In this document: positions 35,673 through 46,797 of the stretch, one piece after another
How the letters are laid out: each line of letters begins with the position of its first letter
Numbering within the stretch: position 1 is the first letter of the stretch
NCBI GenBank assembly: GCA_024680595.1
Contig: JAILCB010000155.1
Coordinates: 1 to 51,475 of the forward strand
Length of the DNA stretch: 51,475 bases
Reading direction: 5' to 3'
DNA from: Lachnospiraceae bacterium
GTDB taxonomy: Bacteria; Bacillota; Clostridia; Lachnospirales; Lachnospiraceae
Translations under genes and position numbers: made by a program
The notes under the pieces: model-generated
Databases searched by the model: none
What the model was told of the DNA's origin: nothing
What the model saw: the letters and a program-made list of their open reading frames with translations, nothing else

Positions 35673-36563
35673 ATGAAGGTGAGAAAAGCGGTTATTCCGG
35701 CAGCGGGGCTGGGGACAAGGTTCCTCCCTGTCACAAAGGCGCAGGCAAAGGAAATGCTGCCTATTGTGGACAAGCCTACAATCCAGTATATCATTGAAGA
35801 GGCTGCCGCCGCAGGTGTAGAGGATATTATTGTCGTAACCGGCCGTAATAAGCGTTCCATTGAGGATCATTTTGATCGCTCCATAGAGCTGGAAATGGAG
35901 TTGGAGAAAGGCGGTAAGGAAGAGCTTTTGAAGATTGCCCGGGCCATTCCGGAAATCGCCAATATTCATTTCATCCGTCAGAAACAGCCCTTGGGCCTTG
36001 GACACGCAGTGCTGACCGCCAGCCATTTCATTGGGGATGAGCCCTTTGCCGTGCTCTTAGGCGATGACGTGGTTATTTCCAAGAAGCCCTGCCTGCAGCA
36101 GATGGTGGAGGTTTTTAGCGAATATAAGACCTCGATTCTGGGTGTGCAAAAGGTTTCAGAGGATGTGGTACATAAGTATGGTATAGTGGACTGCAAGCCT
36201 GTGGATGACAGGGTCTTCAAGGTAAAAGACCTGGTGGAGAAGCCGCCCCGGGAGGAGGCTCCCAGTAATGTGGCCATCCTGGGCCGTTATATTCTGACCC
36301 CTGCCGTATTTAGCTATCTGGAAACTCAGGAGAAGGGGGCCGGGGGCGAAATTCAGCTGACGGATGCCCTTCGCCGCCTGGCCCATGACGAGGCCATGTA
36401 TGCCTATGTTTTCAAGGGTCACCGCTATGATGTGGGTTCCAAGATAGGCTTTTTGCAGGCTAATATTGAGTTTGGCCTCCGGAATCCGGAAATCAGTGAG
36501 GAGTTCAAGGATTATCTGGATGCCCTTCACGAAAATATGGACCAAATGCTGGACTATGATTGA
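35673..36563 (+). CDS. galU: UTP-glucose-1-phosphate uridylyltransferase
   Basis: Makes UDP-glucose from UTP and glucose 1-phosphate, the donor for cell-surface glycans; it also links glycogen breakdown by GlgP to envelope synthesis. Family marks are the nucleotide-binding AGLGTRFLPVTKAQAKEMLP (residues 11-30), IVDKPTIQYIIEEA, RQKQPLGLGHAV, LLGDDVV, and GGEIQLTDAL. About 296 residues, normal. ATG 35673 lies seven bases after GGAGG; starts further upstream lack a site. It precedes a TagA/WecG glycosyltransferase. Confidence 0.96.
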   Translation: MKVRKAVIPAAGLGTRFLPVTKAQAKEMLPIVDKPTIQYIIEEAAAAGVEDIIVVTGRNKRSIEDHFDRSIELEMELEKGGKEELLKIARAIPEIANIHFIRQKQPLGLGHAVLTASHFIGDEPFAVLLGDDVVISKKPCLQQMVEVFSEYKTSILGVQKVSEDVVHKYGIVDCKPVDDRVFKVKDLVEKPPREEAPSNVAILGRYILTPAVFSYLETQEKGAGGEIQLTDALRRLAHDEAMYAYVFKGHRYDVGSKIGFLQANIEFGLRNPEISEEFKDYLDALHENMDQMLDYD

Positions 36564-36636
36564 GAAATTTGCGGGATGACAGTAGCATCTCATGGGTCCG
36601 GAGGACTTGAGATGTTTTCTTTGAGTCAAAGTCGGG

Positions 36637-36657
36637 TAGGGGGATTGTATCCCCCTA
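36637..36657 (+). terminator. Hairpin between galU and tagA
   Basis: Perfect 9-bp stem TAGGGGGAT / ATCCCCCTA with a 3-nt loop, followed by TTCCTATG. The T content after the stem is low, so it is either a weak terminator or a leader hairpin of the next gene, whose ATG is 18 nt downstream. Confidence 0.45.
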
Positions 36658-36675
36658 TTCCTATGTAAGGGAATA

Positions 36676-37446
36676 ATGGATTTGAAAAAGGCAGCAGTGA
36701 GAGAAAAAGAGAGAAAAAGGGCATATATCCTTGGAATACCCTACGTGGTTTCGGATATTTCAAAGGCTGCGCGTTATCTGCTTCGTCATAGGAAAGACCT
36801 GTCGGGACAGTATGTCTGTTTTTCCAATGCCCATACTGCCGTGACAGGCTGGGAGGATCCTGCCTATAGGACAGTGCAAAAGGAGGCCGCCCTTGTTTTT
36901 CCGGACGGAAATTCTATTGCGGTGGAAATGAGGGCAAGAGGATATAGAAGGGCTGAGCGTATAGCCGGGCCTGATTTCATGACCATGCTCTTTTCTCTGG
37001 GATTGAAGGAAAGGGTTTCCCATTACTTCTATGGATCCTCGGAGGAAACCCTTGAGGCGCTGAGGAAATCGCTTTCCAGGACCTATCCCGGTATCCGTAT
37101 TGCCGGGACCTATTCCCCTCCCTTCCGGGAGATTTCGGAAGAGGAGGACAGGGAGCATGTGGAGAGAATAAATAAAGCCCGGCCGGACTTCGTGTGGATT
37201 GGTCTGGGTGCCCCAAAGCAGGAGAAATGGATGGCGGCCCATAAGGATCGGATAAAGGGGGTCATGCTGGGCGTGGGTGCAGGATTTGATTTCCATTCGG
37301 GCAAGGTCAAGAGGGCGGCACCCTGGATCCAAAAGCTGGGACTGGAGTGGCTGCAGCGATTGATGCTGGATCCCAAACGGCTTTTGAAGAGGTATTTGGT
37401 GACCAATACGAAATTCATCTGGTATGCCAAGATAAAGAAGAGATAA
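36676..37446 (+). CDS. WecG/TagA/CpsF family glycosyltransferase
   Basis: A 256-residue GT26 enzyme that transfers a sugar such as N-acetylmannosamine to a polyprenyl-linked precursor, as TagA does in wall teichoic acid synthesis. Family marks are YVCFSNAHTAVTGW, VFPDGNSIAVEMRARGY, ERIAGPDFM, HYFYGSSEETLEALRKSL, and FVWIGLGAPKQEKWM followed by GVGAGFDFHSG. The C-terminal basic region (LDPKRLLKRYLVTN) likely docks at the membrane. AAGGGA precedes ATG 36676. The actual donor cannot be told from sequence. Confidence 0.92.
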   Translation: MDLKKAAVREKERKRAYILGIPYVVSDISKAARYLLRHRKDLSGQYVCFSNAHTAVTGWEDPAYRTVQKEAALVFPDGNSIAVEMRARGYRRAERIAGPDFMTMLFSLGLKERVSHYFYGSSEETLEALRKSLSRTYPGIRIAGTYSPPFREISEEEDREHVERINKARPDFVWIGLGAPKQEKWMAAHKDRIKGVMLGVGAGFDFHSGKVKRAAPWIQKLGLEWLQRLMLDPKRLLKRYLVTNTKFIWYAKIKKR

Positions 37447-37447
37447 G

Positions 37448-37625
37448 AAAAGCATCGAAAAACCGGGTTTAATTGTAGGCTACGAGCCAAAGCCTCATGG
37501 GACGCCTGCGTCCCGATGAGGCCTTGGCGACAGCCCATCATCGAAGGCCCGAAGGGCCTGAGATGTGGGCGAGGCCGGAATCGAGAGGGGGTTCCCTCCC
37601 CTCTCGATGGTTTTTCAATGCTTTT
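37448..37625. ncRNA. Candidate structured RNA element E1 (three helices, 178 nt)
   Basis: A 17-bp terminal stem AAAAGCATCGAAAAACC (37448-37464) / GGTTTTTCAATGCTTTT (37609-37625), with one mismatch, encloses three helices. H1 (37486-37528) is a long hairpin with GCCAA/TTGGC, GCCTCAT/ATGAGGC and GGGACGC/GCGTCCC. H2 (37533-37570) has GCCCA-CATC / GATG-TGGGC, tandem G-A mismatches and an AGGCCC/GGGCCT tip. H3 (37580-37608) is an 11-bp stem. It starts two bases after the tagA stop. H2 and part of H3 recur at 46716. Strand is undecided; on the minus strand H2 has a C(TTCG)G loop. Confidence 0.55.
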
Positions 37626-37626
37626 C

Positions 37627-37678
37627 TTTATCGCAGAGCCGCCGGGATGAATTTGTCGGCTAAAACCGGCCGGCGGCT
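37627..37678 (+). repeat. Cruciform element F1, inverted partner of F2
   Basis: Outer stem AGCCGCCG / CGGCGGCT and inner stem around GTCGGCT-AA, lying 14 bp beyond the malQ stop. The opposite strand of 39732-39786 is nearly identical (about 49 of 53 positions). No T-run follows, so it is not a normal terminator. Confidence 0.8.
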
Positions 37679-37691
37679 TTAATGACCCCTG

Positions 37692-39494
37692 TCAGCGGGG
37701 CATTCTGCCGTATAGCTCGGACAGATCCCTAATACTGCGGGAAAGATCTTCGGACAGATAATTGGGAGCAAGCCTCCACTGCCAGTTATTGTCCTGGGTA
37801 CCCGGGAAATTGATGCGGGCCTCCTTTCCCTTGCAAAGATAGTCCTGCAGGGGAATAATACAGAGATTGGCTACAGACCGGTAAGCCTCCCGAATCATAT
37901 CCCATACAAAGCCGTTGTAGTCCGTATTCATGGAATTAATATAGCGACGGGCAAAGTAGCGCTCACCGTCATTAATTTCCTCTATCCAGGCCCTGGTGGG
38001 GGTGTTGTCATGGGTTCCCGTATAAACCACGCAGTTTTGAATATGCTTGTGATTCATGTAATAGCTGTCCCAGCTGGTAAAGGCATATTGGAGCACCTTC
38101 ATGCCGGGGAAGCCGGAATCGGCTAAAAGCTTCTCGTTCTCGGGGGTATTGGTGCCCAAATCCTCCGCAATTACATTTAGGTGGCCGATTTTCTCTTCCA
38201 TGGCGCGGAACAGATCCATTCCGGGACCCGCTTTCTGCTCTCCGTTTCTGGCGTTGCTGTCCCCGTAGGGAATGGCGTAATATTCAGCAAAACCATGGAA
38301 GTGGTCAAAGCGGATCACATCATAGAATTGGTAATTTCGCTGCATACGGCGGATCCACCAGGAGTAGCCGTCCTTTTTTAACCCCTCCCAATCGTATACC
38401 GGATTCCCCCAGAGCTGGCCGTCGCAGGAGAAGGCGTCGGGAGGGCAGCCCGCTACAGCCTTGGGACGGAGATTCTCGTCCATCTGAAACACCTCGGGAT
38501 GGGCCCAGGCGTCAGCACTGTCTGCAGAGGCGTAGAAGGGCAAATCGCCGATAATCTTCACCTTCTTCCCGTTGGCATAGTCCCGGAGCTTTTTCCATTG
38601 GCGCTGGAACTCATATTGGATGAAGCGGTAGAAATCAATGCTATCCGCAAACTCCTTCTTTGCCAGGGACATGGCCTTTTCTTCCCGCCTTCTATAGTCC
38701 TCGTCCCAGTCCTGCCAGGGCTTGCCGCCCTGATCCTCCTTTAGGGCCATGAAAAGGGCATAGTCCGTCAGCCAATAATCCTGCTCCTTTAGGAAATTCA
38801 GGTAGTCCGCCTTCATTTCCCTGGTGAATTCCGTCTCGGGGGCGGCTTCTTCCATAATTATATCCTCGAAAGAGCTGGAATTCTTTGAAGGAGAAGTCTC
38901 TTCATCGGTGGCTTTATTCTGAGTCTGTCCGGTCTTTCCTGCCATATTATTCTCTAGAGGAGCCCCGTCCTGAAGGGGGGACTCGTCTTTGAGAGAATTG
39001 CTATCTCCAAAGGCCTCATTTCGCGTTTGGACTAAAGCACCATCCACAAGGGTGACCTTATACTCAGACTCTCTTTCCGTTAATATGGGCGTTTTCTGCT
39101 TTTTCTCGCTGACCACAGGCTTCTCCCTAAGTATGTCTCTGCGGAAACGCCTATAGGCCGCCTTTAGAATGAAAAAACGGCTGTTATAAATAGCGCCGTA
39201 GTCTACTCTCTCCGGATTGGAGCCGAAATCATAGCCCTCCAGATCCTCAGGCTTTAAAAGACCTTCCTCCAATAGGATTTCAGGTGAAATGAAGTAGGGA
39301 TTTCCGGCAAAGGCGGAAAAGGGCTGGTAGGGGGAGTCCCCAAAGCCTGTGGGTCCCACGGGCAGAATCTGCCAATAGCCCTGTCCGGATCTTTCGAGAA
39401 AGTCTACAAATTCATATGCTTCCCTGGAGAAGCAGCCAATGCCATATTTTGAAGAAAGTGAAAAAATTGGAAATAGAATGCCACAGCCTCTCAT
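37692..39494 (-). CDS. malQ: 4-alpha-glucanotransferase (amylomaltase) with a ~100-residue insert
   Basis: GH77 enzyme that rearranges maltodextrins, acting with glycogen phosphorylase. Family marks are GILFPIFSLSSKYGIG at the start, YWQILPVGPTGFGDSPYQ, IIGDLPFYASADSADAW, GCPPDAFSCDGQLWGNPVYDW, VIRFDHFHGFAEYYAIP (catalytic Asp near residue 395), and VYTGTHDNTPTRAW. It has 600 residues against the usual ~500, because residues ~122-225 hold a Glu/Ser/Thr/Asn-rich low-complexity insert. AGAAAGGC precedes ATG 39494. The gene is bounded by inverted copies of element F. Confidence 0.95.
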   Translation of the reverse strand: MRGCGILFPIFSLSSKYGIGCFSREAYEFVDFLERSGQGYWQILPVGPTGFGDSPYQPFSAFAGNPYFISPEILLEEGLLKPEDLEGYDFGSNPERVDYGAIYNSRFFILKAAYRRFRRDILREKPVVSEKKQKTPILTERESEYKVTLVDGALVQTRNEAFGDSNSLKDESPLQDGAPLENNMAGKTGQTQNKATDEETSPSKNSSSFEDIIMEEAAPETEFTREMKADYLNFLKEQDYWLTDYALFMALKEDQGGKPWQDWDEDYRRREEKAMSLAKKEFADSIDFYRFIQYEFQRQWKKLRDYANGKKVKIIGDLPFYASADSADAWAHPEVFQMDENLRPKAVAGCPPDAFSCDGQLWGNPVYDWEGLKKDGYSWWIRRMQRNYQFYDVIRFDHFHGFAEYYAIPYGDSNARNGEQKAGPGMDLFRAMEEKIGHLNVIAEDLGTNTPENEKLLADSGFPGMKVLQYAFTSWDSYYMNHKHIQNCVVYTGTHDNTPTRAWIEEINDGERYFARRYINSMNTDYNGFVWDMIREAYRSVANLCIIPLQDYLCKGKEARINFPGTQDNNWQWRLAPNYLSEDLSRSIRDLSELYGRMPR

Positions 39495-39731: not shown

Positions 39732-39786
39732 GAGCCGCCGGTCGGCTTTAGCCGACAAATTTCATCTCGGCGGCTCTGCGATAAAA
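39732..39786 (-). repeat. Cruciform element F2
   Basis: Outer stem GAGCCGCCG / CGGCGGCTC (9 bp) and inner perfect stem GTCGGCT / AGCCGAC (7 bp, two-base loop), joined by AAATTTCATCT. Inverted relative to F1, 2.1 kb away. The changes in F1 largely keep the outer stem; one inner pair becomes a T-G wobble. Confidence 0.8.
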
Positions 39787-46672: not shown

Positions 46673-46712
46673 AATCCCCCGCTTAATGCTAATGCATTTG
46701 AAGCGGGGGATT
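46673..46712. terminator. Second 12-bp hairpin downstream of trpB
   Basis: Perfect stem AATCCCCCGCTT / AAGCGGGGGATT with a 16-nt loop. It lies immediately beyond element E2 as seen from trpB. Neither strand has a clean T-run, so it may be a terminator or part of the E2 structure. Confidence 0.5.
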
Positions 46713-46715
46713 TGT

Positions 46716-46797
46716 TGTGTAGGCTGCCCATCATCGAAGACCCGAGGGCACTGAGATGTGGGCGAGGCCCGAATCGAGGTGTCAGCTTTCTCGATTA
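46716..46797. ncRNA. Candidate structured RNA element E2 (reduced copy of E1)
   Basis: The 53-nt core starting at 46726 matches 37533-37585 in 48 of 53 bases, and TAGGCT (46720-46725) is shared just before it. Helix H2 keeps GCCCA-CATC / GATG-TGGGC and the tandem G-A mismatches; H3 is reduced to AATCGAG / CTCGATT (46772-46796). The H1 hairpin of E1 is absent. Both copies lie where two convergent genes end. Confidence 0.5.

Follow-up and report, generated by a model that had tools for sequence, protein, structure and literature searches.

A gene-less, probably mobile repeat of Lachnospiraceae that adjoins intrinsic terminators and appears to be a diverged branch of the Clostridiales-1 RNA family

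The way in which short gene-less repeats spread among bacteria is mostly unproven. BOX and ERIC-type repeats are modular non-coding repeats similar in length to the units described here, and IS200/IS605 elements insert without target duplication. Clostridiales-1 (RF01699) is an RNA family of Rfam, and in the table of its discovery paper the two columns that follow RNA are said to be headed cis-regulatory and switch. The accessible part of that paper gives 'n' in both columns and names this orphan candidate once, in the table (PMC2864571). According to the accessible parts of other papers, REPs comprise 20–50 nt after GTAG (PMC8266576), single-strand transposons carry hairpins and insert on the same strand 3' of a short target (PMC6006769, PMC8266576), and group IIC introns insert at terminator motifs, less often at attC (PMC4424553). 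No repeat of the kind reported here is described in the titles and abstract openings listed among open-licence papers.

The window, the whole 51,475-nt stretch of DNA analysed here, contains at 37448–37625 what the first-pass annotation called a 178-nt three-helix element with a 17-bp closing stem. The fold is real and strong. With the outer stem included, it exceeds shuffled sequences both as RNA (z = −7.8, 0/200 as stable) and as DNA (z = −7.6 and −8.1 for the two strands). The stretch is not a 178-nt RNA gene, however. Genome matches mostly cover residues 27–161 of the query, the longest 16–164, and thus the outer stem lies outside the repeat, whose unit E1 is given with its helices in Table 1. 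The inverted repeat taken for a closing stem is present (arms of 20 nt, 95% complementary), but it is a palindrome of the host. Outer inverted flanks were rejected as a general trait of the repeat, as they were seen at only one of the 53 first units defined below, E1 itself. The type-A unit is composed of TG(T/C)AGGCT, P2, P3, the 3' strand of P1 and then PT, and the tandem G-A mismatches previously noted in one helix are located in P3. The relatives share the closing helix P1, the hairpins P2 and P3, and usually PT; the tip of P2 is GCTTGC in most of them. Other types follow the same plan with different sequences, the units being about 95–180 nt long and containing no gene. The window's genome contains 33 exact TAGGGG forms of PT and none of the reversed-pattern control.

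Table 1. Positions of the repeat units, their parts and adjoining host features (window coordinates, or locus handles for the last row)
Feature	Position	Strand	Basis or remark
E1 proper, one repeat unit, three-helix type A	37474..37608	+	genome-match core; full-length match to model R2, E 3.1e-28
P1 5' strand, GGCT	37478..37481	+	pairs with 37573-37576; predicted fold, helix 1 of covariation test
P1 3' strand, GGCC	37573..37576	+	predicted fold
P2 hairpin (formerly H1), tip GCCTGC	37486..37528	+	predicted fold, covariation
P3 hairpin (formerly H2), tandem G.A, C-GAA-G tip	37533..37570	+	fold, covariation
PT terminal hairpin (formerly H3), ATCGAGAGGGG..CCCCTCTCGAT	37580..37608	+	
Left arm of outer host palindrome (formerly the closing stem)	37445..37464	+	outside the repeat
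Right arm of outer host palindrome	37609..37628	+	abuts the unit's 3' end
E2, P2-less unit: P1, P3, short PT	46718..46795	+	sequence match to E1 core
Host intrinsic terminator, directly upstream of E2	46673..46712	+	arms 46673-46684 and 46701-46712
Faint unit relic between two genes, degenerate PT	36536..36664	+	model R2, E 0.0029
Units below the RF01699 cut-off	L004, L244, L057, L180, L242, L013, L252, L247, L246, L250		

The reported recurrence of the core at 46726 with 48 of 53 bases is exact (46726–46778, 90.566%). E2 is indeed a reduced copy, with P2 missing and PT shortened, but its fold barely beats shuffled sequences, being slightly better without significance (z = −1.5, 18/200 as stable). 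E2 is counted as a family member because of its sequence match to E1 and because six other P2-less copies occur in the loci examined. Both copies lie between convergent gene ends as described, WecG / glycosyl hydrolase 77 for E1 and DUF4910 / PALP for E2. A second repeat, ATCGCAGAGCCGNCG.GATGAAATTTGTCGGC.., is observed with its surroundings at 37630–37685 (+, by eye) and 39751–39779 (−) of the window. Both of these copies are right behind terminators, and related stretches occur in G014, G218 and G202.

In the window's own genome (G000; 318 contigs, 3.2 Mb, 85% complete), E1 has at least 77 matches at E ≤ 10 and at least 58 at E ≤ 1.8e-6, with 40 of 151 candidates scored, and some copies at contig ends may be one physical copy assembled repeatedly. 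Head-to-tail arrays with a tandem spacing of about 138 bp are present on contigs C130 and C279, and further copies on C140, C249, C281, C7, C70 and C24, and on C280, C190, C13, C228 and C61. Within arrays, the next unit begins directly after the CTCGAT of the preceding unit, and mixed arrays hold types A, B and C together. Two contigs (end of L013, start of L017) have a common right flank behind different arrays, A-B and A, possibly strain variation.

Units of the repeat are carried by bacteria of the gut and rumen. A pattern scan of GTDB for PT detected at least 90 stretches, and most of the 80 listed belong to Lachnospiraceae or Oribacterium. Model R1 at E ≤ 1e-5 matched 7 of 120 same-family genomes (7 of 119 genera), and model R2 (seed alignment of 42 rows, two of them reverse-strand) at E ≤ 1e-6 matched 5 of 291 genomes of the class, all from the same family. 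The absences in these searches are soft, since few candidates were scored per genome. The type-A unit has no match in plasmids and phages, and the PT pattern has none in IMG/VR. Sixteen loci of the PT scan lying outside the model search gave mostly weak palindrome matches with R2; the best of them (L141, E 4.3e-6) was rejected as a unit on inspection, the P3 part being absent. Solitary PT hairpins are also found at the tips of longer host palindromes (L077 near 1501, L093 500–529, L109 3126–3155). Palindromes of 35–36 nt, TCGAGTAGGGG..CCCCTACTCGA, are seen at L092, L112, L136, L137, L141, L150 and L164, in Chloroflexi, cyanobacteria and Bacteroidota, mostly without a body by model R2.

The earlier proposal of a structured module family is borne out: whole helices are lost, as in the P2-less copies, and the helices covary. 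A covariance model built from 16 type-A units found 113 matches in 92 loci at E ≤ 0.01, and the palindromic PT caused some of these to be called on the wrong strand. The covariation set was taken from the strong matches in 27 of the 92 loci (36 matches at E ≤ 1e-7, 35 distinct). In this set, 89.9% of the cells are paired and 44 of 52 pairs are changed on both sides. The alignment was fitted to the model, a few rows being partial or reverse-strand, and the covariation score is 0.542; 500 shuffles gave 0.143 ± 0.008, and slid pairings did not exceed 0.078. These gaps are far wider than model-fitting could explain. MAFFT and RNAalifold applied to diverse units misaligned P3.

The position of the units was tested at the sites in L001–L180 that have a recognised start motif and PT, a subset of all copies. 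Merging of double starts reduced 75 sites to 63, and dropping L152 left 62, of which 9 follow a PT and 53 are first units. In the final form of the test (loops up to 14), an intrinsic terminator ends at the start of 39 of the 53 first units (17/26 in G000 and 22/27 elsewhere), compared with 4/52 downstream, 9/152 further upstream, and a mean of 7.0 (maximum 13) in shuffles. The looser-merged form of the test (loops up to 10, sites unmerged) gave 46/70 at the units, 2/68 downstream and 0/65 upstream. In other genera, 12 of 14 units start at a terminator (L257 was left out, its upstream sequence lacking). Terminator and unit are on the same strand. Further units adjoin the terminal hairpin of the unit before them on its 3' side, resulting in head-to-tail arrays, and the distance from hairpin to unit differs between terminators and PT. 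The base preceding the 53 first units is G in 29 cases, T in 20 and A in 4. E1 itself fails the test; it is preceded by TTTAAT within the host palindrome, with no T-run. One of the two failing units of the other genera, L244, is located directly behind a T-box region (90.6 bits, Rfam cut-off 93). At this locus (1243–1624), the T-box precedes a threonyl-tRNA-synthetase-like ORF, and the unit has a long, perfect P1 and no PT. The place of this unit, next to a T-box region before an ORF, suggests that terminators are targeted and not the ends of genes. The neighbouring ORFs (121 scanned of 187 candidates) gave 148 Pfam families, and no transposase is among the 25 most frequent of them.

An insertion is visible in G439, where the filled site is TTTTTTTG-unit-TCTATATCAGAG; the empty site of G553 is TTTTTTTGCCTTTATCAGAG. 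The unit is absent at this site from three relatives, G553 (96%), G516 (87%) and G544 (81%). The insertion follows T7G and there is no target duplication, the join being uncertain by 1–2 bases at this one clean site. Searches of 48 genomes gave no convincing empty site for E1, E2, L023, L027 and part of L030 (first 1776 of 3600 bases); matches crossing the L023 junction, of up to 14 bases, were discarded because they belong to another repeat. For L252 and L253, the spacers of the relatives are too different for an empty site to be found. Type B is 90–94% identical between two genera, and the type-B bodies in G245, G398 and G439 of genus g166 have 91, 92 and 88 of 98 columns identical to those of G000. 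Among 56 outliers whose start is far from PT, inspection by eye gave no convincing element with an internal gene. The family of E1 is very probably a mobile repeat.

The first-pass annotation recognised no riboswitch, 6S, SRP, RNase P or tmRNA pattern in E1. E1 itself matches no Rfam family: the window has no match at the gathering score, and 37350–37750 has none at E ≤ 10. Several relatives do match one. RF01699 was scanned against 18 other loci (E ≤ 1; cut-off 48 bits), and L249, a unit behind a terminator, matches at 97.5 bits. Ten units are below the cut-off (28.5–42.3 bits, E 4.5e-6 to 0.023; Table 1), including G000's own types B and C. Type A (L055) and others have no match at E ≤ 1. 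Thus, the kinship of E1 to RF01699 runs through the other types. Separate copies of RF01699 above the cut-off are present in L253, L118, L108, L278, L274 and L283. In genus g166, one locus upstream of a gene starting MSRLLVIGCGG was compared in 18 genomes. A whole RF01699 is present in 4 of them by Rfam score (L253, L274, L278, L283), and P1 and P2 only in 2 (41.5 bits in L275, 38.8 bits in L289). In the remaining genomes, inspection by eye showed remnants in two (L280, L294), other hairpins in two (L281, L292) and nothing in 8. The Clostridiales-1 copies at this locus have no preceding T-run. They are located at 6–172 in L253, 274–438 in L274, 2951–2787 in L278 and 2929–2766 in L283, and the closing helix extends into the stop codon of the upstream gene; in L274, the opposite strand of this helix matches an altered Arg codon.

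According to our best reading, the repeat is a non-autonomous mobile element of Lachnospiraceae from a diverged branch of the Clostridiales-1 family, and E1 is one of its copies. The unit would move as a folded single DNA strand, the strand carrying the T-run of the terminator. P1 would place the 5' end of the unit beside the foot of the terminal hairpin, and an enzyme supplied in trans, able to cleave folded single strands, would join the unit 3' of a hairpin with a T-run. The likeliest candidate for this enzyme is a Y1 HUH transposase like those of IS200/IS605 and REP elements. On balance we lean slightly towards a mobile Clostridiales-1 branch that targets terminators via folded single-stranded DNA, with the enzyme left unnamed. 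The single-stranded DNA step taken by itself is tentative, and our estimates of this step and of the whole reading were lowered a little since relatives match an Rfam RNA family; a Y1 enzyme as the mobiliser is rather unlikely. Y1_Tnp has 4 matches in G000 and is present in 6 of 10 other carriers and absent from 4, among them G010 (75% complete). No unit was found in 40 loci of candidate enzyme genes (34 Y1, roughly half of the 69 listed, 4 reverse transcriptase and 2 tyrosine recombinase), and no mobilising gene was found beside the units in the neighbour-ORF and enzyme-locus searches.

DNA on the T-run strand is hinted at by the P3 tips, by the G.A pairs of P3, which would read T.C on the other strand, and by the scarce excess of G.T, none of them decisive. 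The P3 tip is C-GNA-G or C-GNNA-G in 10 of 18 subfamilies, loop classes that were noticed after the fact; such tips form a class of extraordinarily stable DNA mini-hairpins according to the accessible text of PMC4686876. In 51 type-A copies, G.T pairs and A.C mismatches account for 46 and 35 cells, and in 31 units (5 of 36 rows dropped) for 39 and 26 of 1147 cells. A tRNA acceptor control gave 12 versus 0, with a filter that favours pairs, and the wobble count is a weak discriminator between RNA and DNA.

A same-strand site behind a hairpin without duplication is common to single-strand transposons, group IIC introns and integron cassettes. The unit may instead be transcribed, folded as RNA and copied behind terminators by a reverse transcriptase acting in trans, at sites like those of group IIC introns, which we consider unlikely. 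The shared target, the lack of duplication at the G439 site and the strong covariation are consistent with it, the kinship to RF01699 speaks somewhat for RNA, and a reverse transcriptase (PF00078) is present in 6 of 9 other carriers. Against this, RVT_1 has no match in G000 (85% complete), G010, G193 and G195, and G.T is barely above A.C in both counts given above.

The first-pass annotation considered an independent small RNA or a 3' UTR element. A functional RNA of this sort, or a leader element, kept for its use and spreading as a by-product, would suit the covariation, the convergent positions in the window and the whole Clostridiales-1 at one locus in 4 of 18 g166 genomes. We regard it as improbable, since the repeat is dispersed in high copy number, often in tandem arrays, behind unrelated genes whose 121 scanned ORFs span 148 Pfam families; the units lie beyond the terminator, vary in presence among related species at the G439 and g166 loci, and have a decayed copy within the window; and the 'n' entries after RNA in the discovery table, as far as the accessible part of PMC2864571 goes, also argue against it. 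Equally hard to credit is an integron-like process with PT acting as an attC hairpin and units added serially as cassettes by a tyrosine recombinase, which would fit the order hairpin, unit-hairpin, unit-hairpin, the mixed A, B and C arrays and the lack of duplication in G439, but none of 10 carriers has an integron integrase scoring over the curated cut-off, weak matches to it occur in all 10 carriers and all 14 control genomes alike, no attC-like box was seen by eye, and the L244 unit, which has no PT, apparently follows a terminator as well.

Returning to the mobile repeat, it would be an element able to multiply without breaking genes, and its movement is testable, as there are a defined target, an empty and filled pair, extreme covariation, and species differing at the same loci. 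More broadly, and with considerable doubt, Clostridiales-1 may not be a cellular RNA gene at heart. Its fold may instead be that of a replicon of about 130 nt without genes, which adds new copies of itself at intrinsic terminators and at its own terminal hairpin. The intermediate would be single-stranded and folded, and the enzyme would be one that has so far not been connected with a known transposon. For this orphan structured-RNA family, the repeat provides a first explanation.

The units resemble Clostridiales-1 in the closing helix, the long first hairpin with the GCUUGC tip and the second hairpin; the Rfam model differs in having no PT, terminator position or high copy number, and E1 and type A do not match it. 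REP/BIME sequences with TnpA-REP are likewise high-copy palindromic intergenic repeats in arrays, and a Y1 HUH enzyme recognises their folded single strand. Units of types A and C begin with GTAG, and GTAG or GT(A/G)G is found just 5' of the hairpin in these two types. In contrast to REPs, the units here are multi-helix and longer, and many lack GTAG. A Y1 gene flanked by units, a trait of REP/BIME, was not seen in the 34 Y1 loci (0 units). The IS200/IS605 elements and their palindrome-associated derivatives also have hairpins and insert 3' of a short target (accessible part of PMC6006769), whereas the target here is a terminator. Their fixed target can be compared at one clean site, the preceding base varies, and no ends shared with a resident tnpA element were found within the loci searched. 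Group IIC introns share insertion behind intrinsic terminators (accessible part of PMC4424553), seen here at 39/53 and 12/14 units, but the units are much shorter, and neither a group II intron RNA in the window (Rfam) nor a reverse transcriptase in G000 was matched. In kind the repeat is closest to REP and in target to the group IIC introns, but the tests applied place it in neither group.
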